A stretch of DNA of 64,000 nucleotides from positions 62,001 to 126,000 of the forward strand of contig NZ_LMOZ01000001.1 of assembly GCF_001423695.1 (NCBI RefSeq), given 5' to 3'. The position numbers were made by a program, and so were the translations under genes. The stretch is from Leifsonia sp. Leaf336. Lineage in GTDB: Bacteria > Actinomycetota > Actinomycetes > Actinomycetales > Microbacteriaceae. The notes below the pieces were generated by a model. That model did not search any database, was not told where the DNA came from, and saw only the letters and a program-made list of their open reading frames with translations. Below, piece by piece: positions 3,352-42,391 of the stretch. How positions within the stretch are numbered: position 1 is the first letter of the stretch; the number at the start of each line of letters is the position of its first letter.

Positions 3352-6143
3352 GGGATGGGCTCCCGTCGCGTGCCTGGGGTGGAGGGGTCGGATTCGGCCG
3401 TGCCGGACTGGAAGTCGGTGGGGAGGTCGGGCTCGGTGATGTGGGCGTCGGCGATGGGCGGGTTGGCGTTGGGCGGCAGGAGGTCCGCGACCGCCTCGGG
3501 GGAGGTCGCGGCGAGCACGAGAGCCGTGCCGCCGGCCGTGACCCGCGCGAGCTGATCGGCCAGCGCCTGCCGCTCGGCGCCGGTAACCGCCTCGGCGCCG
3601 TCCACGACCAGGACCACCGGCCGGTCGGCTGTCGCGTCCCGCACCGCCGCGACCGCGTCGCGCGTGCGGTCCAGCCGGGCGATCGCCGCGCGCGACCGCA
3701 CCGACGACCGCCGAACCGGCAGCAGGAGGCCGTCCACCTTGAGGCGCCCGGCCTCCAGGGGCGCGCGCCCGGCGATCGCCGACGCCAAGGCGGTGTGCCC
3801 CGGCCCGGTGAGCACGATGGCGCCGCCGCGCGGCACCAGGGCGTCGAACGATCCGGAACCTCCGGCTCGAGCGCCGTCGGCGGCGATCGCGTAAGTGGCG
3901 CCCGGTTCGGGCCAGTCGGCCGCGTCGAGCTCGGCCTGCACGCCTTCGCCCTCGATGTCGAGCACGGGCAGGGCGCGGTCCCACGACCGCGGCATCCACC
4001 AGGTCGCCCTCCCGAACAGCACGAGCACGGCGGGGATCAGGGTCATCCGCACGACGAACGCGTCCACGACGACTCCGACGGCGAGGCCGAGCGCGATCGG
4101 CTGGATCTGGGCGTCGCCGCCCGGGATGAAGGCGGCGAACACCGCGAACATGATGATCGCGGCGGCCGTGACCACCTTGGCCGATCCCTCGAATCCCTTG
4201 TGTACGGAGCCCTTCGTGTCCTCGCCGAGAAGGTGCTCCTCGCGCATGCGGCTGGCGAGGAACACCTCGTAATCCATGGCCAGCCCGAACAGCACGCCCA
4301 TCACGATGATCGGCATGAAGCTGATCACCGACCCGATGTGCGCGACGCCGAGCGGCCCGGCGAACCAGCCGCTCATGAATACCAGGCTGGTGACGCCGAA
4401 CGCCGCGCCGATGCTGAGCAGGTAGCCGAGCGCGGCCGTGACCGGCACCACGATCGACCGGAACACGATGGCGAGCAGCACCAGCGACAGCCCGACGACC
4501 AGCAGCGCGAACGGCAGCAACGCCCCTCCGAGCCGGGCGGAGATGTCGATGCCCGCGGCCGTGTACCCGGTGATCGACAGGTCGATGCCGTACTCGCGCT
4601 CGAAGTGGTCGTGCATCGAGCGGAGCTTCGCGACGAGCTCCTGCGTCTGCGGCGAATCCGGGGCGCCGGTCGGCACCACCTGGGCGATCCCGGTGTCGCC
4701 GGACTCGTTCGGCGTCGACAGCGGCACGGCCGCGACGCCGGGGACGGTCTTCAGCTCGGCGGCGAGGTCGTTCATCAGCCCGACCGGGTCGGTGCTGCCG
4801 ATCACCGACCCGGTGGCGATCAGCGGACCGTTGTAGCCCGGGCCGAAATGTTCGGCGACCAGGTCGTAGGCGATGCGTGCGGGCTCGTGCTCGTCGAGCG
4901 AGCCTGCGTCCGGCAGGGCGAGCCGCAGGGAGGCCGCCGGCAGCGCGACCAGCCCGAGCAGCCCGACCACGAGTACCACCGTGAGGATCGGAATGCGGGT
5001 GACCGCGTGCACCCAGGTGGTGGCGACGGGATGCTCGCGGCGGGGCTTAGGCGTGCGGCGCCGGGGCTTCGACATGCGACGCGGAGGCGGAGGAGTCGGC
5101 GCCGCGCCCTTCCGGTACCTCCTCGCCACCACCCGCATCCCCGCGAACCCGAGGAGTGCCGGCGTCAGCGTCATCGAGATCAGCACGGCGATCGTCACCG
5201 CGAGCGCGGCGGCGACGCCCATCGTCGTGAGGAACGGGATCCCCGCGACGCTCAGCCCCACCAGCGCGATGATGACCGTGACGGCCGCAAAAACCACGGC
5301 CGACCCGGCTGTCGCGACCGCGCGGGCGGCGGACTCCTCCGGCTCCATCCCGCGTTTCAGCTGCTCCTGGTGGCGGGAGACGATGAACAGCGCGTAGTCG
5401 ATCCCGACCGCGAGCCCGAGCATGAGGGCCAGCAGCGGAGTCGTGGAGGCGATCGTGAGCCAGTGGGTCGCCGCGAAGATCAGTGACAGCGAGAGCCCGG
5501 CGCCGAGCAAGGCCGTGATCAGGGGCAGGGTGGCGGCGATCACGGAGGCGAACGTCGCGATCAGCACCGCGAACGCGACGGCGATGCCGAGCAGCTCGGT
5601 GACGCTGATCCCGGCGACCGTCTGCGAGAACAGCTGGCCGCCGACCGCGACCTCCGAACCTTTCGGCAGGGCGGCCTCCAGGTCGCGCCCGGCCTTCTGG
5701 AGGGCGTCGGAGGTGGACGGCAGCACGGCCGTCTGCGAGACCGAGAGCTGGATGGGCACGATCACCGCGGAGCCGTCGGTGGCGATGTTGCCGGTCGACG
5801 GGCCGCTGTAGGGGGAGGACGCGGAGGTCACCTGCGGGATCTTCGCGATCGCGGCCGCCGACGACTCGACCGCCGACTGGAACGCGGGATCGTGGACGTC
5901 CGTGCCCTTCGGCGCGACGGCGACGAGCTGCGCGGAAGTGCCGCTGACCTCCGGGAAGGTGCGGGCGAGCGCGTCCTGAGCCTCCTGCGACTCGGTGCCG
6001 GGGATGCTGAAGGTGTTGTCGGTCCCGTTGCTGAGCAACCCGGCTCCGGCCAGCAGGAGGACGAGCGCCACCAGCCAGCCGGCGAGCACCCATCTCCGCG
6101 CCCGGAAGGCAGCGCGGCCCAACATGTACAGAAGGGACGACAT
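3348..6143 (-). CDS. MMPL/RND transporter with C-terminal ABC-like pseudo-ATPase domain
   Basis: A 931-residue protein. Residues 1 to about 725 are an MMPL (RND-superfamily) transporter: one N-terminal membrane helix, a periplasmic loop, a six-helix bundle, a second loop and a second six-helix bundle. Such proteins export lipids or drugs using the proton gradient. Residues from about 727 (positions 3967-3348) are unusual: a soluble domain resembling an ABC nucleotide-binding domain that has lost its P-loop (GPGHTA near residue 780 where GPNGAGKT is expected) and catalytic acid (VVDGAEA near 847 where LLDEPT is expected), and lacks an LSGGQ signature. I chose the ATG at 6141-6143 because promoter elements TTGTCG-17-TACATT end 7 nt before it. 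It overlaps the YhgE gene by 4 nt. Confidence 0.9.
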   Translation of the reverse strand: MSSLLYMLGRAAFRARRWVLAGWLVALVLLLAGAGLLSNGTDNTFSIPGTESQEAQDALARTFPEVSGTSAQLVAVAPKGTDVHDPAFQSAVESSAAAIAKIPQVTSASSPYSGPSTGNIATDGSAVIVPIQLSVSQTAVLPSTSDALQKAGRDLEAALPKGSEVAVGGQLFSQTVAGISVTELLGIAVAFAVLIATFASVIAATLPLITALLGAGLSLSLIFAATHWLTIASTTPLLALMLGLAVGIDYALFIVSRHQEQLKRGMEPEESAARAVATAGSAVVFAAVTVIIALVGLSVAGIPFLTTMGVAAALAVTIAVLISMTLTPALLGFAGMRVVARRYRKGAAPTPPPPRRMSKPRRRTPKPRREHPVATTWVHAVTRIPILTVVLVVGLLGLVALPAASLRLALPDAGSLDEHEPARIAYDLVAEHFGPGYNGPLIATGSVIGSTDPVGLMNDLAAELKTVPGVAAVPLSTPNESGDTGIAQVVPTGAPDSPQTQELVAKLRSMHDHFEREYGIDLSITGYTAAGIDISARLGGALLPFALLVVGLSLVLLAIVFRSIVVPVTAALGYLLSIGAAFGVTSLVFMSGWFAGPLGVAHIGSVISFMPIIVMGVLFGLAMDYEVFLASRMREEHLLGEDTKGSVHKGFEGSAKVVTAAAIIMFAVFAAFIPGGDAQIQPIALGLAVGVVVDAFVVRMTLIPAVLVLFGRATWWMPRSWDRALPVLDIEGEGVQAELDAADWPEPGATYAIAADGARAGGSGSFDALVPRGGAIVLTGPGHTALASAIAGRAPLEAGRLKVDGLLLPVRRSSVRSRAAIARLDRTRDAVAAVRDATADRPVVLVVDGAEAVTGAERQALADQLARVTAGGTALVLAATSPEAVADLLPPNANPPIADAHITEPDLPTDFQSGTAESDPSTPGTRREPIP

Positions 6144-6179
6144 CGGGGCCAATGTAGAGCTTCGCTCAGCTTCCGACAA
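6144..6179 (-). promoter_or_regulatory. Probable leaderless promoter of the MMPL-YhgE unit
   Basis: On the minus strand TTGTCG (6179-6174), a 17-nt spacer and TACATT (6156-6151) are followed by 7 nt and then the MMPL ATG at 6143. No purine-rich ribosome site is present. The geometry matches the tetR, clp-N and kynA promoters in this window. Confidence 0.6.
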
Positions 6180-6238
6180 TGCCTCGCCTTGGGGCGGCCC
6201 GGCCTCTCCCGAGGGTCGGGCCCGGCCTCCCAGGAGGG

Positions 6239-28500: not shown

Positions 28501-29169
28501 ATGCGCCTCACTTCGTTCGTCGACCTGACGCATCCGCTCGGCGATGAGACGGACGTCTATCCGGGCGACCCGGAGGTGCGGCTCGAGCCGCACGCGACGA
28601 TCGCGGCCGACGGCTTCAACCTCCTCGCGGTGCAGCTGGGCTCGCAGTCGGGCACGCACGTCGATGCGCCGTTCCATTTCGCGGCGGACGGTGCCCGTGT
28701 CGACGAACTGCCGCTCGCGCTCTTCTCCGGGCCGGCCGTGATCGTCGACGTGAGCGGCCTCGGGCCGCACGGGAGGATCGGGCGGCGGCAGCTCGATCCG
28801 CTGGAGGACCGTCTGCACGAGGGCGTCGTGCTGCTGTTCCGCACAGGGTGGAGCGCCCACTACGGCACCGAGCGGTACTACGCGCATCCCTTTCTCGACG
28901 CGGACGCGTGTTCCGGGGCGCTCGACTGCGGCGTGCGGACGTTCGGTCTCGACGCCCCGAGCATCGACGAGACTCCGATCGAGGAGGGCTCGGGCAAGGA
29001 TTATCCGTGCCACCGGCTCATCGCGGCAGCAGGCGGGGTGATCTGCGAGAACCTGACGCGGCTGGAGGACGTGACCTTCGCCGACCCGTTCGTCTCGCTC
29101 TTCCCGATCCCGCTCAGCGGGGCCGACGGGGCGCCGGTGCGGGCGGTGGCGTTCCGTCTGGAGGCGTGA
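28501..29169 (+). CDS. Cyclase-family metal hydrolase (KynB-like)
   Basis: A 222-residue member of the cyclase/kynurenine formamidase family. The metal motif appears as [10 protein letters not shown] (HxDxPxHF) near residues 51-60, with the later [16 protein letters not shown] supplying the second His and Glu. True KynB enzymes open N-formylkynurenine; others cleave isatin or cyclic amides. It starts 3 nt after the TfoX-N gene. Because a kynureninase/tryptophan-dioxygenase operon lies 7-10 kb away without an obvious kynB, this gene is a candidate for the missing formamidase, but it is not linked to that operon. Confidence 0.82.
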
Positions 29170-34837: not shown

Positions 34838-35659
34838 CTAGGTGCGCGACGGGACCGCGGCCTCGCGGGAGGCGAAGGCGACGGCGCGCGGGGCGAGGTC
34901 GCGGTGCAGGCGGGCGAACAGCGCCGCGGAGGCCTCCCCGGGCCATTCGGCCGGCAGCGCGGCGGCGGGGAAGCCCGGGTCGCGATACGGGATCACGCGC
35001 CACTCGTCGAGTACGCGGATCCACAGCGCGAACGCCTCGGCGTCGGCGGTGGGCACCGTCGTGTCGCCGAACCGGGAGAGGAACGACTCGTGCAGCGCGC
35101 GGAGGGCCTCCAGGTCGTACCAGCGGGAGACGGCGACCGCGAGCTCCGCTGCGTCGGCGGCGGGCCGGGCTCCGGTGAAGAGGTCGGCGCCGAACTCGGC
35201 CGCGACTTCCGCGAGCTCGGGCTCGAGACGGTCGGGGCCGATCCATAGCCCGTCCGCGACGGTGCCGCAGCCGAGAGCCGCGAGCCGCCGGCGCAGCTGA
35301 TGGCGCAGGGAGCGCTGGTGCTCGGGGAACGAGAAGGAGACCAGACACCAGTGCTCGGTGGCGCGGCGCTCGCCGAAGATGCGGGCGTCGCCGCGCTCGA
35401 GCATCGGCACGGCCTCCGGGTCGAGCGAGTACCCGGCCACGCCGTCCAGCGGCTCGCGGACGAGCACGCCGCGCGAGCAGAGCCGCGCGAGACTGGAACG
35501 CGCGGTCGCGGCGGGGAAGCCCAGCGCGCCCATCAGCTCGACCGCGCCCGCAGAGCTCATCCAGCCGCCGATCGGGCGCAGCGTGCTGCCGACGACCGTG
35601 CGGAGCAGGGCGGTGGCCGAGCCGCTGCGCGCCTCCAGATCCTCGCGGCCGATGGTCAC
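34838..35659 (-). CDS. PaaX-like transcriptional regulator
   Basis: A 273-residue PaaX-family protein with an N-terminal winged helix (S-S-A-G-A-V-E-L-M-G-A-L-G-F-P-A-A-T-A-R-S-S-L-A-R-L) and the PaaX middle and C-terminal domains (W-C-L-V-S-F-S-F-P-E; I-P-Y-R-D-P-G-F-P). PaaX represses phenylacetate catabolism in response to phenylacetyl-CoA; here it is the last gene of the kynurenine operon, overlapping kynU by 4 nt (GTGA). It is therefore the likely regulator of tryptophan breakdown, perhaps sensing an aromatic-acyl-CoA such as anthraniloyl-CoA (inference). Confidence 0.87.
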   Translation of the reverse strand: MTIGREDLEARSGSATALLRTVVGSTLRPIGGWMSSAGAVELMGALGFPAATARSSLARLCSRGVLVREPLDGVAGYSLDPEAVPMLERGDARIFGERRATEHWCLVSFSFPEHQRSLRHQLRRRLAALGCGTVADGLWIGPDRLEPELAEVAAEFGADLFTGARPAADAAELAVAVSRWYDLEALRALHESFLSRFGDTTVPTADAEAFALWIRVLDEWRVIPYRDPGFPAAALPAEWPGEASAALFARLHRDLAPRAVAFASREAAVPSRT

Positions 35660-36951
35660 TCGTGGATCAGCTCCCCGAGCACGTCGCGCACGGCGGCCAG
35701 GCCGACCGCGACCTCCTCGAAGCTCGTGCTCAGCGGCGACAGGCCGATCCGGAGGCCGCCGGGATCGCGGTAGTCGGGGATGACGTCCCGCTCCCAGAGC
35801 CGCGCGGTGACCTCCCGCATCGCCGGATGGTTCAGCGTGAGGTGACCTCCCCGGCGCTCAGGGTCGCGCGGACTCGCGAGCGCGACGCCGAGCGGGGTCA
35901 GCCAGGTCTCGGCCAGGCGCAGCGCGAACTCGGTGAGGGCGACCGACTTGTCGCGCACCGCCTGGATGCCGCACTCGCGGATCATCGCGACGGTGTCCTG
36001 GAGGGCGAGCATCCCGACGATCGGCGGGGTGCCGGACAGGAAGCGCCGGAGGCCGTCGGCCGGCTGGTACTCCGGTCCCATCAGGAAGACGTCGCGGACG
36101 CCCATCCAGCCCTGGATCGGCTGGACCAGCCGGCTCTGCAGGCGTTCGTTCACGTAGCCGAAGGCGGGCGAACCCGGGCCGCCGTTCAGATACTTGTAGG
36201 TGCAGCCGACGGCGAGGTCGACCTCCCAGTCGTCGAGCTCGACGGGCACGGATCCGGCGGAGTGGCACAGATCCCACAGCACGAGCGCGCCCGCGTCGTG
36301 CACGATGCGGGTGATCGCCCGGGCGTCGGCGAGGAAGCCGGAACGGTAGGCGACGTGGCTCAGGACCACCAGTGCGGTGCGCGGTCCGACGGCCGCGGAG
36401 ACCTGTTCCGGGGTGACGCCGGCCTCGGTGTCGGCCTCGATCCAGACGAGGTCGAGGCCCCGCTCGCGCGCGATGCCGTCGAGCACGTAGCGGTCGGTCG
36501 GGAAGTTGTCGGTGTCCAGCACGATCTCGCTGCGCTCGGGCAAGGAGTCGACGGCCGCGCGCGCGAGCTTGTAGAGCAGGACCGTCGTCGAGTCGCCGAT
36601 GAAGACCTGGCCGGTTCCGGCGCCGAGGGCGGTGGAGCCGAGGTCGTCGCCGATGCGGAACGGGAGTTCCATCCACTCCTCGTCCCACCCGCGGATCAGG
36701 CGGCCTCCCCAGCCGTCGATCACGAAGCGCTGGAGGCGCTCGACGCTCGCGACGGCGGGGCGGCCGAGCGAGTTGCCGTCGAAGTAGGCGAGCACGGGCT
36801 CCGGAGTCGCAGCGCTCGGCGTGACGCCGACGAAGCGCTCACGGTAGGCGGCGAGGGGGTCGGCGGCGTCGAGTGCGCGCGCCGCCGCCAGAGGGTCGCC
36901 GTCGAGGGCCTCGTCGTCGGCGAAGGGGTCGTCAGTGGGGGTGTCGGTCAT
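35656..36951 (-). CDS. kynU: Kynureninase
   Basis: A 431-residue PLP enzyme that splits kynurenine into anthranilate and alanine. It shows Y-F-D-G-N-S-L-G-R-P near the N-terminus, F-P-T-D-R-Y-V, W-D-L-C-H-S-A-G and the PLP lysine in C-T-Y-K-Y-L-N-G-G-P-G-S-P-A-F-G. The N-terminal 30 residues are acidic and variable. The ATG at 36949-36951 overlaps the amidohydrolase stop (ATGA), and the stop overlaps the PaaX-like start. Part of a four-gene operon beginning with kynA. Confidence 0.97.
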   Translation of the reverse strand: MTDTPTDDPFADDEALDGDPLAAARALDAADPLAAYRERFVGVTPSAATPEPVLAYFDGNSLGRPAVASVERLQRFVIDGWGGRLIRGWDEEWMELPFRIGDDLGSTALGAGTGQVFIGDSTTVLLYKLARAAVDSLPERSEIVLDTDNFPTDRYVLDGIARERGLDLVWIEADTEAGVTPEQVSAAVGPRTALVVLSHVAYRSGFLADARAITRIVHDAGALVLWDLCHSAGSVPVELDDWEVDLAVGCTYKYLNGGPGSPAFGYVNERLQSRLVQPIQGWMGVRDVFLMGPEYQPADGLRRFLSGTPPIVGMLALQDTVAMIRECGIQAVRDKSVALTEFALRLAETWLTPLGVALASPRDPERRGGHLTLNHPAMREVTARLWERDVIPDYRDPGGLRIGLSPLSTSFEEVAVGLAAVRDVLGELIHE

Positions 36952-38012
36952 GAGTGCTCCTGTCGGATGGGCGCGAGGTCGGAGAGGTGGAGGCCGCGCG
37001 CGCCGGCCAGCCAGGCGGCGAGGCGGGCGGGTTCTGCGGGAGGCGGGGAGGGGACCCAGGCGACGCGGGGGCCGAGGGGTGGGGTGGTTTCGATTGTGCT
37101 GGTGCCGCTGGTGCTGGTGGTGTCCGCGATCGTGCGGAGGAGGGCGGGGCCGTTCAGCCCTGCCTTCTGGAGGGCGGCGAGTTCGCGCGCGTTCACGCCG
37201 ACCGGGAGGTCGCCGTTGCCGAGGTCGGTGCCGTAGAGCACGCGCCCGCCGCGGGCCGCGAAGCGGCGGAGGTTGTCGACGGCGATGCGAAACGCGGCGG
37301 TCGGCGTGCCCCAGCCGTGGATGTCGAGGGTGCTGATCCAACTCATCCCCGCGTCGACCGCCTCGGCCACAAGCCCGTCGTCGAGGCGTTCGCTGAACGG
37401 GGTGTGGGCGAGCTGGTCGACGCCGGCGCGCAGGGCTCGGGCGGTCTGGCCGACGCCCTCCACGTGGGCGACGACCGGGATGCCGGCCGCATGAGACTCC
37501 TGCACAATCGCGCTCAAGGTCAGGTTGTCCACGGTTTCGCCCGCGTCGCTGTTGAGCGCGACTTTGATGCGGGAGGCTCCTGTCATGATCTGTTGCTGCA
37601 CTGCTTCTCCGGCCTCCCGGGGGCCGCCCACCTCGCTCGCCGCACCGGGAGGAGCCCACCCCGACATCACGGGGTAGCCACCGGGAGCGGTGAGGAGCGC
37701 GCCCGCGATGGCGACGGCCGGGCGGTCGCGCACGTCACGCAGCCAGGTGGCGGCGACGGACGGGACCCAGCCCAGGTCGACCGCGTGCGTGATGCCACCG
37801 CGGAAGAGTGCGGTGGGGTTGCTCAGGCCGAGGTGCGTGTGGTGGTCGGTGAGCGACGCGAAGAGGGTGCCGCCGAGCTCGACGACGTTCGACGTGGTCG
37901 CGACGTCCGTCGCCCGCTGGAGGCGCTCGCCGACGAGCGAGAGGAGGGTCGGGCCGGTGAAGCGGTCGCCGGTCCAGAGCGCGTCGACTCGGACGAGCCC
38001 GCCGCTGCTCAC
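36948..38012 (-). CDS. Amidohydrolase-superfamily enzyme in the kynurenine operon
   Basis: A 354-residue metal-dependent amidohydrolase with the full ligand set: H58-T-H60 in D-H-H-T-H-L-G, K150 in S-R-I-K-V-A-L (possible carboxylated lysine), H183 in V-V-A-H-V-E-G, H203 in L-A-H-T-P-F and D263 in Y-G-T-D-L-G-N. The overall shape is like imidazolonepropionase or prolidase-type members. It overlaps kynA upstream (GTGA) and kynU downstream (ATGA), so it is translated together with both. In the pathway kynA product N-formylkynurenine must be deformylated before kynU; this gene sits at exactly that step. I infer an alternative N-formylkynurenine deformylase, with hydrolysis of another tryptophan-derived amide as the alternative. 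Confidence 0.8.
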
Positions 38013-38869
38013 TCCGGCGCGCCGATCTCGGTGCGCACCGCGAAGAGCTCGGGGAAGAACGTGAGGTCGAGGGCCTTCTGCAAGAAGGACACGCCGCTCG
38101 AGCCGCCGGTGCCGACCTTCATGCCGATGGTGCGTTGCACCGTCTTGAGGTGGCGGAAGCGCCAGAGCTGGAAGTTGTCCTCCAGATCGACCAGTTCTTC
38201 GCAGGCCTCGTACTCGCTCCAGTGCTCCGCGGCGTGCTCGTAGATGTCGCGGAAGACGGGGACGAGTTCTGGGCAGAAGACGTGGGCCTCCGTCACGTCG
38301 CGGTCGAGCACCGACTGCGGCACGGGGTGGCCGGCGCGCGCCAGGTACCGCAGGAACTCGTCGTAGACGCTGGGCGCCTCCAGCAGCTCGGTCAGCAAGG
38401 CCAGGGCGTCGGGGTCGTCGCGGAACACGGTCAGCATGCGCCGGTTCTTGTTGCCGAGCACGAACTCCACGGCGCGGTACTGGTACGACTGGAAACCGGA
38501 CGAGTTGCCGAGGAATCCGCGGAACTGCGCGTACTCGGTCGGCGTCAGGGTGGCGAGCACGGACCACTGCTCGGTGAGCGTCTTCTGGATGTGCTTGACG
38601 CGCGCGATGCGCTTGAGCGCCTGCGGGAGCTGGTCGGCCCGGAGCAGGTCGCGGGCGTCCTCGAGTTCGTGCAGCACGAGCTTGAGCCAGAGCTCGGTCG
38701 TCTGGTGCTGGATGATGAACAGCAGCTCGTCGTGATGCTCGGGGACGCTCACCGGCTTCTGTGCGCTGAGCAAAGTGCCGAGGTCCAAGTACGACCCGTA
38801 CGACATCCGCTCACGGAAGTCGGTGACGATGTCCGGGTCGAACTCTCGGGTGTTCTCGTTGACAGCCAT
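38009..38869 (-). CDS. kynA: Tryptophan 2,3-dioxygenase
   Basis: A 286-residue heme dioxygenase that opens tryptophan to N-formylkynurenine. Typical segments are [39 protein letters not shown] and, at the C-terminus, [14 protein letters not shown] with the heme-ligand His, then [11 protein letters not shown]. The length is normal. It is the first gene of the operon; the ATG at 38867-38869 lies 6 nt after a -10-like CAGAAT with no ribosome site, suggesting a leaderless transcript. Confidence 0.97.
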
Positions 38870-39061: not shown

Positions 39062-40219
39062 ATGGGCAGGCACTACGACCTCGCGATCGTCGGCGGTGGA
39101 ATCGTCGGACTCGGCCATGCCGTCGCGGCCCTGCGCCGCGGCCTCACCGTGGCCGTCGTCGATCGGGCGTCGAGCGTGAACGGCGCGTCCATCCGCAACT
39201 TCGGCCATCTCGGCATCACCGGTCAGGAGGGCGAAGCGCGGGCGTACGCCGAGCTGGCACGCGAGCTGTGGCTGACCCTGTCGGTCGAGGCGGGGTTCTG
39301 GCTGCGCGAGTCCGGCGCGGTGGTCGTCGCCCAGGCGCCGGACGAGCTGGACGTGCTCCAGGAGTTCCGCGATCGGCGCGGCGGCCACGATGTGCGGTTG
39401 CTCACGCCCGCGCAGGTGCGGGAGCGGATCCCCGTGGGAGACGGCGTCGCCGTCGGCGGTGCGCATCTTCCGGCCGACCTCCAGGTCGATCCGCGCGAGG
39501 CGGCCCCCGCGATCGCGCGCTGGCTCGACGCGCACGGGGTCGACTTCTTCTGGCAGACGACAGTGACCGGCGTCGAGACAGGACGCGTGCACACCTCGCG
39601 CGGACGCGTGTCGGCCGACGCGGTGGTCGTCGCCGTGAATCAGGACGTCGACCAGCTCTTCCCCGGCATCGCGGAGGCGAACGGCATCCAGCGCTGCGGT
39701 CTCGACATGATGCTCGTGGAGGCCGAGCTGGACGAACCGCTCGCGGCGCCCGTGCTCACCGGGTGGTCGCTCCTGCGCCTCCCCGGGTTCGCGCACACCC
39801 CGTCTGCGGACGCGCTGCGCGAACGGCTGGCCGCGGAGGATCCGGTGCCGGCCGCCCTCGACGCCGACCTGATGTACGTGCAGCGACCGGACGGCGCGCT
39901 GATCCTCGGCCACACCCGCCACCGCGGTGACGACGTGTCGCCGTTCCAGTCGGAGTCCGCCTCCGAGCTGCTCGTCGAGCGCGCACGGACGCTCTTCGGG
40001 CTCGGCCGCGTGCGAGTACTCGAGCGCTGGCAGGGCATCGATGCAGCGGCGCCCGACGACTTCCTCGTGTCGTCCCCGGCGCCGTCGGTGAGGGTCGTCT
40101 CCGTCACTGGTGGCATCGGCATGACAACCGGACTCGGTCTCGCGGACCGGGTCGTCGATGAGCTCTTCTCGACCGCTCCGGGAGTGCTGACCGCGGCAGG
40201 GGCCGCCCGCTCCCGCTGA
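39062..40219 (+). CDS. FAD-dependent oxidoreductase, TIGR03364-like (phosphonate-associated)
   Basis: A 385-residue D-amino-acid-oxidase-type flavoprotein. The dinucleotide-binding G-G-G-I-V-G is at residues 11-16; G-A-S-I-R-N-F-G-H-L-G-I-T-G and the C-terminal T-G-G-I-G-M-T-T-G-L-G-L-A are typical of the TIGR03364 group. Genes of that group recur beside phosphonatase-like hydrolases and a particular alcohol dehydrogenase, exactly as here, and are thought to oxidise an aminophosphonate (substrate here unproven). The ATG at 39062 follows GGGAG. First of three same-strand genes; 109 bp of CG-rich repeats separate it from the hydrolase. Confidence 0.85.
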   Translation: MGRHYDLAIVGGGIVGLGHAVAALRRGLTVAVVDRASSVNGASIRNFGHLGITGQEGEARAYAELARELWLTLSVEAGFWLRESGAVVVAQAPDELDVLQEFRDRRGGHDVRLLTPAQVRERIPVGDGVAVGGAHLPADLQVDPREAAPAIARWLDAHGVDFFWQTTVTGVETGRVHTSRGRVSADAVVVAVNQDVDQLFPGIAEANGIQRCGLDMMLVEAELDEPLAAPVLTGWSLLRLPGFAHTPSADALRERLAAEDPVPAALDADLMYVQRPDGALILGHTRHRGDDVSPFQSESASELLVERARTLFGLGRVRVLERWQGIDAAAPDDFLVSSPAPSVRVVSVTGGIGMTTGLGLADRVVDELFSTAPGVLTAAGAARSR

Positions 40220-40328
40220 CCTCCGCCGGCCGCCCGAGCCGGCCTCCCACCACCGACCGCCCCGCAACCGACCGCCCCGCCGACACCCGCCCCGCCGACC
40301 AGGAAGACCGCACAGAAAGGCTTCTGCC

Positions 40329-41231
40329 ATGTCCCCTGAAGGACTCATCACGAGTGAGTTCGACGACGCCGCGATCATCGACGCCGATGTCGCCGCCGTC
40401 GCCGCCGCCGTCGACGAAGGCGAGGATCCCGACGACCTCGCCGACCTCGAAGTCGTGGTGCTCGATCTGACGGGCACCACCGTGGTCGACGACGGCCTCG
40501 TGGAGCGGGCGTTCGAGCGCGCCGCAGACGCCGCAGGCATCGCCGAGTCCGACGACGAGTTCGAGCGCGCGCTCGCGTTCGTCCGCGCGACCACGGGTCG
40601 CTCGACCGTGGCGGTCTTCCGCGCCCTCACCGGCGATGAGGAGCAGGCGCAGCACGCCAACGCCGTCTTCGAGTCGTCCTACGCCGAGCTCGCGGCCGCG
40701 GGCGGGATCCGGCCCGTTCCCGGGGCCGCGGAGATCATCCGGCGTCTGCGCGCGATCGGCGTGGCCGTCGTCCTGACCACCGGGCTCTCGCGCGCCACTG
40801 CCGACGCCGTGCTCGACGCCGTCGGCTGGCGCGACCTCGCCGACCTCACCCTCACCCCGGCGGAGGCGGGCCGGGGCGGCCCGTACCCCGACCTCCCGCT
40901 GACGGCGCTGCTGCGGACGGGGACGTCCACCGTCGAGGGGATGGTCGTCGTCGGTGACACCTCCGCCGATATCGCGAGCGGCCTGGCCGCGGGCGCCGGT
41001 CTCGTCGTCGGGGTGTTGACGGGCTCGAACGACGAGCGCGCGCTCACCGCTGCCGGAGCCGATGCCGTCGTCGCGAGCGTCGCCGACCTCGGCGAGTTGC
41101 TCGGCCTCGACGACCTGGAGCACGTCGACAGGCTCGACGACGACTTCGACGACTTCGACGACTTCGACGACTTCGACGACTTCGATGACCTCGACGCGGA
41201 CGACCAGCCGGAGGGGCAGACCCCGCGGTGA
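40329..41231 (+). CDS. Phosphonatase-like HAD hydrolase with acidic repeat tail
   Basis: A 300-residue HAD-superfamily hydrolase of the PhnX-like (TIGR03351) group. The nucleophile motif is V-V-L-D-L-T-G-T-T: the second Asp of normal HAD phosphatases is replaced by Thr, as expected for phosphonatase relatives, where it is usually Ala. Later V-V-V-G-D-T-S-A-D-I is the metal motif. Unusual parts: an acidic 35-residue N-terminal extension (D-V-A-A-V-A-A-A-V-D-E-G-E-D-P-D-D) and a C-terminal tail of five exact D-D-F units encoded by a 9-bp tandem repeat. AGAAAGG lies upstream of the ATG. The stop overlaps the dehydrogenase start. Confidence 0.85.
   Translation: MSPEGLITSEFDDAAIIDADVAAVAAAVDEGEDPDDLADLEVVVLDLTGTTVVDDGLVERAFERAADAAGIAESDDEFERALAFVRATTGRSTVAVFRALTGDEEQAQHANAVFESSYAELAAAGGIRPVPGAAEIIRRLRAIGVAVVLTTGLSRATADAVLDAVGWRDLADLTLTPAEAGRGGPYPDLPLTALLRTGTSTVEGMVVVGDTSADIASGLAAGAGLVVGVLTGSNDERALTAAGADAVVASVADLGELLGLDDLEHVDRLDDDFDDFDDFDDFDDFDDLDADDQPEGQTPR
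41139..41192 (+). repeat. 9-bp coding tandem repeat (Asp-Asp-Phe)
   Basis: Five perfect in-frame copies of GACGACTTC and a sixth diverged copy (GATGACCTC) inside the phosphonatase-like gene. Perfect identity at third positions points to recent slippage; copy-number changes would keep the reading frame and only lengthen or shorten the acidic tail. Confidence 0.95.
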
Positions 41232-42391
41232 CGATCAAAGCAGTGACCCCGCGCGTCGTCGAGCCACCGGCGAGCCTGGGGATGGGGGTGAGCGTGTATC
41301 CGTCGGCCACCGCGATGGTGTGGCCGGGTGAGGGGCACACGCACGAGGCGGTCGCCGTGCCCGGTGTGCGGCTCGCGCCCGGCGACGCGCTCGTGGAGGT
41401 GGAGCTCGCGACGGTCTGCGGGTCCGATGTCGAGACGGTGCTCGGCCATCGGCCGGCCTCCACGCCGCTGGTGCTGGGTCACGAGCAGGTCGGCAGGGTG
41501 ATCGCACTCGGCCGCGGCGGCGCGAAGACGACCGACGGCAAGCGGGTGGCGCTCGGGGAGCGGGTGGTCTGGTCGGCCGCCGTGCCCTGCGGCCGGTGCG
41601 CGCGGTGCCGCCGAGGCGTCCCGCAGCAGTGCGTGAGCCTCCAGAAGTACGGGCACGAACGCATGCGGCGCGGCTGGGAGCTCTCGGGCGGCTTCGCCAC
41701 GCACACGCACATCCTGGACGGCACCCCGCTGGTGGCCGTCCCCGAGGGCGTCGCGGCCGAGGTGCTCGCACCCGCGTCGTGCTCCACCGCGACGGTCGCG
41801 GCGGCGCTCGAGGCAGCGGCGGCGATCGTCCCGCTCGACGGAGCGCTGCTGGTCATCGCCGGCGCAGGGATGCTCGGACTGACGGCCACCGCGATGGCGA
41901 CGGAGGCGGGGGCGAAGGTCGTCGTGATCGACCCCCTCCCGGAACGACGCGAGACCGCGCTGCTGTTCGGCGCCCTCGCGGTCGCCGACCCGAACGCCGC
42001 GCCGGGAGCCCGCTCGGGTCTGCAGCACGCGCTGGCCAAGGCGGGAGGCCGCGCCTCCGTGCCCTCGATCGCCCTCGAGCTCTCAGGTGCAGCATCCGCC
42101 GTCCGCTCGTTGCTCTCCGTCGTCGACGTGGGGGGCGTGCTGGTCCTCGCCGGTTCGGTGTCGCCCGGCCCGGAGCTGCCGGTCGTCCCCGACCTTCTCG
42201 TGCGGCACCTGCTCACCATCCGCGGCGTCCACAACTACGCGCCGCGGCACCTGGAGGAGGCGGTGCGGTTCCTGACCGACGCGGGCGCCAAGTATCCGTT
42301 CGCTCAGCAGGTCGGCGCCGTGTTCCCCCTCGCCGAGGTGGATGCGGCGCTGGTGTGCCGAGGTTCTGCGCGGGTGGCGGTGCGGCCGTAG
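41228..42391 (+). CDS. Zinc-type alcohol dehydrogenase, phosphonate-catabolism-associated family
   Basis: A 387-residue medium-chain dehydrogenase of the TIGR03366-like group. Catalytic-zinc residues appear in C-G-S-D and G-H-E-Q-V-G; four structural-zinc cysteines are in [15 protein letters not shown] (C-x2-C-x2-C-x7-C); the cofactor loop is G-A-G-M-L-G. The GTG at 41228 overlaps the hydrolase stop (GTGA). With the two upstream genes it forms a unit that probably oxidises and cleaves an aminophosphonate or a phosphonate-derived aldehyde/alcohol. No phn transporter or C-P lyase gene is in the window. Confidence 0.85.

Follow-up and report, generated by a model that had tools for sequence, protein, structure and literature searches.

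A putative kynurenine formamidase of the amidohydrolase superfamily in the tryptophan-catabolic operon of Leifsonia sp. Leaf336 and other actinobacteria

Described formamidases and the operon of Leifsonia

The kynurenine route of tryptophan breakdown is textbook metabolism, and N-formylkynurenine is the known substrate of the arylformamidases, i.e., alpha/beta-fold serine hydrolases that carry an HGGxW motif and act without a metal. The present analysis concerns a stretch of 64,000 nucleotides from Leifsonia sp. Leaf336 (contig NZ_LMOZ01000001.1, positions 62,001 to 126,000; hereafter the window), where the gene placed between those of tryptophan 2,3-dioxygenase (kynA) and kynureninase (kynU) codes for a protein of the amidohydrolase superfamily. 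This gene, here called amh, very probably codes for a kynurenine formamidase that replaces non-homologous ones in many actinobacteria, as judged from its neighbours, its predicted active site and the genes found where it is missing.

Among the described systems, the bacterial formamidase KynB (PF04199; PMC4243253) is similar to Amh in the proposed reaction, the place in the pathway and the two-metal chemistry, but the two sequences are unrelated, their ligand sets differ, and the KynB model TIGR03035 does not match Amh. The arylformamidases of the AFMID type are not homologous to Amh either, a Pfam scan found no alpha/beta hydrolase domain in Amh, and a hydrolase similar to theirs is found in related kyn operons (loci L038, L039, L042, L049 and L250).

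One other relevant case is the 513-amino-acid amidohydrolase MymD/MyeD, which the passages of PMC5867642 that deal with it propose to cleave the amide of N-formylkynurenine in mycemycin biosynthesis, where the deletion of myeD abolishes the product. As with Amh, this protein is called an amidohydrolase and is proposed to act between tryptophan dioxygenase and kynureninase, whereas its length and its biosynthetic cluster are different, the comparison being one of descriptions only. An earlier reading made from the letters of the window (hereafter the sequence-only reading) had suggested that Amh may be an undescribed class of kynurenine formamidase. This stands insofar as neither a described formamidase of the amh family nor a catabolic role for it was found in open PMC papers, a search that left preprints and subscription journals outside, but the idea of an amidohydrolase as formamidase was already in print, given the proposal made for MymD/MyeD. 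The AcnG protein of the actinomycin cluster (326 amino acids), named an arylformamidase in the passage of PMC6521150 that lists it, was set aside as an Amh-like candidate. It is more likely an alpha/beta hydrolase, because a 320-amino-acid reading frame for a hydrolase with the motif HGGNW precedes kynA-kynU in locus L262, although AcnG is known here by its description only.

In the window, the minus strand carries four genes with open frames, i.e., kynA (38009..38869, 286 amino acids), amh (36948..38012, 354 amino acids, with a GTG start that overlaps the kynA stop), kynU (35656..36951, 431 amino acids, with an ATG start that overlaps the amh stop) and, as the fourth and last gene, that of a PaaX-like transcriptional regulator (34838..35659, 273 amino acids, GTG start). 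The overlaps of 4 nucleotides which the sequence-only reading had claimed for these genes are borne out at every junction by the coordinates and by the letters themselves (GTGA, ATGA and GTGA). KynA exceeds the cut-off of TIGR03036 (401.5 bits vs. 390.7) and also matches PF03301, while KynU lies above the cut-offs of PF22580 KYNU_C (84.8 bits vs. 27) and Aminotran_5, and below that of TIGR01814 (228.6 bits vs. 246.4). The regulator exceeds the cut-offs of PF07848, PF20803 and PF08223, and reaches 103 bits on TIGR02277, below the required 264.6. In the related loci, an overlap of 4 nucleotides is possible at 47 of 66 kynA/amh junctions and 69 of 76 amh/kynU junctions, counts that are biased toward overlap given that the start nearest to the stop was picked, and translational coupling of the operon genes is possible.

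The match of Amh to Pfam Amidohydro_1 is weak (21.2 bits, below the cut-off of 25), and its placement in the amidohydrolase superfamily follows from a profile of 30 Amh rows, which finds 19 sequences of the PDB at E<=0.001, the best of them an "Amidohydrolase family protein" at E 2.5e-21. The solved members of the superfamily include 8ihq, 9l36, 9l2t (the amide hydrolase LlADH), 3mtw and 3be7 (arginine carboxypeptidases) and 4c5y (ochratoxinase), all of which are longer than the amh family (403-438 amino acids vs. about 340). We take 8ihq and its kin to be ochratoxin degraders, the PDB listing giving them as amidohydrolases, and these enzymes are not known to us to have a role in tryptophan catabolism.

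The complete metal site noted in the sequence-only reading is confirmed by six residues, encoded on the minus strand by the codons of H58-T-H60, an HxH metal-binding motif (37833..37841), K150 (37563..37565), H183 (37464..37466), H203 (37404..37406) and D263 (37224..37226). All six ligands are invariant in the 30 rows of the profile. A wider alignment of 148 distinct rows, with gaps excluded and a few proteins represented by more than one piece, shows a single exception, a Gln in a truncated copy (L074, from G141). The ligands also align in the three PDB chains compared, the counterpart of D263 being Asp in 8ihq and 9l6p and Asn in 9l36. Going by these alignments, the ligand set is that of the binuclear amidohydrolases, where K150 would presumably be the carbamylated lysine bridging the metals and D263 the proton shuttle, these roles, like the type of metal, being carried over from the superfamily.

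The peptidases among these relatives raise the possibility that Amh is a peptidase-like amide hydrolase, of the Xaa-Pro dipeptidase or carboxypeptidase type, feeding tryptophan or kynurenine derived from peptides into the pathway. The arginine carboxypeptidases of the PDB and the Xaa-Pro dipeptidase model NF051886 are indeed among its matches, but the score on the latter is far below the cut-off (35 bits vs. 500), and such a role would not explain the slot between KynA and KynU, the exchange with an alpha/beta hydrolase described below or the many genomes without a gene of the KynB family, which makes it the least probable of the alternatives considered here.

Conservation of the operon and exchange with an alpha/beta hydrolase

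The operon is found well beyond Leifsonia. The genes kynA, amh and kynU follow one another in this order, all on the same strand, at 24 of 30 loci of the family, the window's own included, with kynA missing beside amh in four others (L019, L022, L027 and L031) and kynU in two (L029 and L016, where the end of the contig cuts it). In the genome_contigs survey, which covered the 80 best matches out of 438 loosely related stretches, the full trio is present in this order in 62, amh-kynU in 13, kynA-amh in three and amh alone in two. Given this recurrence of the trio, the arrangement is not due to chance. The hosts of the trio include Leifsonia, which is closest to the window, Cryobacterium, Agromyces, Cellulosimicrobium, Oerskovia, Rhodococcus and Halopolyspora, as well as a replicon of Embleya, and those of amh-kynU only include Frigoribacterium, Nocardia and Nocardioides.

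The same association is seen in whole genomes. In a sample of 199 genomes of the family, amh is present in 57, of which 56 have a strong match (E < 1e-40) and one (G141) a truncated copy beside kynA, and 49 of these 57 also have kynA (Fisher p 5e-22, uncorrected for kinship). In a sample of 394 genomes of the class, all 30 genomes with amh have a kynA match, against 236 of 394 overall (p 9.5e-8). A mirror-tree comparison over 63 loci gave correlations of 0.75 for amh-kynU, 0.62 for amh-kynA and 0.88 for kynA-kynU, which were obtained without a neutral-gene control and are not used as proof.

An especially informative group is made up of the genomes that have kynA and lack amh. Sixty-nine genomes of the family have kynA, in 57 cases of the close type and in 12 small genomes of a divergent type, and amh is missing in eight of the 57. 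Four of these eight have an alpha/beta hydrolase within the operon (L038, L039, L042 and L049), and a profile built from the four finds homologues in three more, i.e., G116, where it adjoins kynA, G138, where it lies elsewhere in the genome, and G009, where it is in two pieces in a genome that is 86% complete; no homologue was found by the profile in G084. The operon-type hydrolase is thus present in seven of the eight genomes without amh and in none of the 49 with both kynA and amh (E < 1e-20; Fisher p 3e-8), with at most 13 candidates scored per genome and two weaker matches, at about 1e-16 in G075 and G142, left uncounted. When the four genomes that seeded the profile are removed, the contrast is three of four vs. 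none of 49 (p 1.7e-4). The motif of these hydrolases is HGG(Y/F)W in L038, L042, L049, G116 and G009, HGGYY in L039 and HGGYF in G138.

In the window's own genome, no homologue of this hydrolase was found at E<=1e-15 with 13 of 63 candidates scored, nor at E<=0.001 with 19 of 19 scored, the latter without a positive control. At the class level, 39 kynA loci, picked non-randomly from the 236 genomes with kynA, include three where amh adjoins kynA, eight with an HGGxW hydrolase nearby and one (L240) with a match to the hydrolase profile and no such motif; amh and the hydrolase occur together in none of the 39. In L250, which reads kynA-hydrolase-kynU, the hydrolase lies exactly in the slot of amh. 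The hydrolase of L038 weakly matches the solved kynurenine formamidase 4e11 (E 2e-4), and the function of the operon hydrolases is itself a prediction, given that their closest NCBIfam model is a hormone-sensitive lipase that they match far below its cut-off.

As far as gene content can tell, amh and the alpha/beta hydrolase alternate as they would if one enzyme had displaced another of separate origin, and Amh is very probably a non-homologous replacement formamidase. Twelve further loci of the family with a divergent kynA near kynU (L036, L037, L040, L043, L044, L046, L048 and L050-L054; about 31-40% identical residues across the main piece), those of the 12 small genomes, showed no match to amh or the alpha/beta hydrolase, and PF04199 is unmatched in nine of the twelve.

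Given these results, Amh is very probably the kynurenine formamidase of the operon, a function for which substrate, metal content and mechanism are all predicted. KynA would open the indole ring of tryptophan to yield N-formylkynurenine, which would then enter the two-metal site of Amh, where H58 and H60, the carbamylated K150, H183 and H203, and D263 would hold the metals and a bridging hydroxide would be activated between them. This hydroxide may attack the formyl carbon while D263 relays a proton, releasing formate and kynurenine, the latter of which KynU would split into anthranilate and alanine, and the PaaX-like repressor probably controls the operon. Amh would in this way substitute both for the alpha/beta hydrolase of the arylformamidase kind present in sister lineages and for the KynB of other bacteria.

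KynB-family genes and the cyclase of the window

The superfamily of KynB is the other place where a formamidase may be sought. PF04199 is matched in 126 of the 199 genomes of the family irrespective of kynA (odds ratio 1.2, p 0.63), and no match was found in 16 of the 49 genomes with both kynA and amh, in which, by the known families, the middle step of the pathway would be empty. The check proposed with the sequence-only reading, i.e., whether genomes with the operon lack kynB, therefore shows that KynB is not always present, so that the refutation named with that reading, a working KynB in every case, does not hold, and a KynB elsewhere in the genome was rejected as a general answer. At the class level, the KynB motif was found in none of the 39 kynA loci scanned. 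Together with the exchange of amh for an alpha/beta hydrolase in sister operons, these absences support the earlier view that an amidohydrolase fills the formamidase slot.

The chief rival remains within the window's own genome, which holds three PF04199 genes, one of them KynB-like and separated from the operon by about 6 kb of the same contig. This cyclase (28501..29169, plus strand, 222 amino acids; PF04199 102.5 bits), or some other hydrolase, could deformylate N-formylkynurenine, leaving Amh to act elsewhere, e.g., on another aromatic amide. Its closest PDB chains, 4cz1 and 4co9, are named kynurenine formamidases (E 3e-23), two of the 80 loci (L075 and L076) have a homologue some 4.5 kb past the operon, and the genome G084 (L276), where neither amh nor the alpha/beta hydrolase was matched, has kynA and a cyclase that shares a particular Gln with that of the window. 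This Gln, on the other hand, is aligned to the zinc ligand His50 of KynB, a residue kept in 99.7% of aligned KynB sequences according to the passage of PMC4243253 that reports it, and the cyclase scores only 87.1 bits on the KynB model TIGR03035, far below its cut-off of 223. Nor would a cyclase account for the 16 genomes without PF04199 or the indifference of the family to kynA, and this alternative appears unlikely.

Departures from the operon and flanking genes

Apart from the KynB-like cyclase, a number of observations weigh against Amh as the formamidase of the pathway. Neither amh nor the hydrolase is found in 27 of the 39 class-level kynA loci, and amh is more divergent than its neighbours (median distance 0.49 vs. 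0.27 for kynA and 0.34 for kynU), i.e., it evolves faster. The co-occurrence at the class level includes three genomes with amh and kynA on different contigs (G613, G738 and G743) and eight of the 30 (G597, G617, G632, G670, G700, G707, G715 and G724) counted by the presence of both genes, whatever their linkage. The genome G743 has a kynA-kynU-alpha/beta-hydrolase locus (L274) plus a distant relative of amh elsewhere (E 5e-32), and G141 has kept kynA and kynU with amh truncated. In this last locus (L074), the remnant of about 170 amino acids lies between kynA and kynU at 5680-6189 on the minus strand, with the first ligand His changed to Gln.

Other loci have amh away from kynA, or from kynU. 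The 13 amh-kynU loci of the survey lack kynA nearby, and five genomes with this pair (G004, G035, G110, G150 and G167) have no match to TIGR03036 anywhere. Two loci (L102 and L103) have neither partner, and in the genus g35 (G034, G109 and G166) the amh locus lacks kynU and the genome lacks kynA. As a stand-in for kynA, the indoleamine dioxygenase PF01231 was not matched in 13 genomes, a search whose control gave no match either. In a tree of 128 rows, made by a quick method and rooted at the midpoint, the Frigoribacterium-type amh-kynU clade is nested inside clades with kynA (support 99 for the clade and 96 for the fork above it), and, given this nesting, the lineage probably lost kynA and kept amh and kynU. 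The amh-kynU arrangement of this type without kynA is seen in L055-L059, L088, L092, L096, L097, L110, L117, L119, L136 and L137, and a methyltransferase gene lies beside the pair in L056-L059, L110, L117 and L136.

The link of amh to kynU in the absence of kynA would also suit a reversed order of reactions, which gene order does not fix, in which KynU cleaves N-formylkynurenine to N-formylanthranilate and Amh then deformylates the latter. The hydrolases that replace amh resemble arylformamidases, whose known substrate is N-formylkynurenine. Kynureninase, in the passages of PMC5867642 that treat it, is described for kynurenine and 3-hydroxykynurenine, and a role of Amh after KynU is therefore highly improbable.

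Also counting against the proposed role, a second class of the phylum has amh close to a kynureninase-like gene at 13 of the 20 loci read, one of five such genes tested exceeds the kynureninase cut-off, and tryptophan dioxygenase was found in one of four genomes searched (84-96% complete); the function of amh may differ there. In the loci concerned (L186-L199), the relative of amh and the kynureninase-like gene are often convergent, and uvrB adjoins in L195 and L199, where a neighbour of about 672 amino acids, considered as a peptidase, was rejected since it is UvrB in both loci tested.

If Amh is the formamidase, its family fills a step that the known families leave empty and adds another example of a reaction for which unrelated enzymes have been recruited, and it would provide a signature for annotators and perhaps a useful deformylase scaffold. 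More tentatively, amh might found an additional class of kynurenine formamidase, non-homologous to the others, on the amidohydrolase scaffold and spread through the Actinomycetota, in which amh-kynU, where tryptophan dioxygenase was lost, would serve to salvage N-formylkynurenine that enters from outside the cell or arises by photo-oxidation of tryptophan; we hold this wider scenario to be possible rather than probable.

Finally, a scan for inverted repeats upstream of kynA gave short pairs only, and three genes of phosphonate-catabolism families are divergent from the operon on the plus strand (39062-42391), i.e., an FAD oxidoreductase (TIGR03364), a phosphonatase-like gene (TIGR03351) and an alcohol dehydrogenase (TIGR03366). 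The phosphonatase-like gene scores 206.0 bits, below its cut-off of 218.9, and has DDF repeats near its end.

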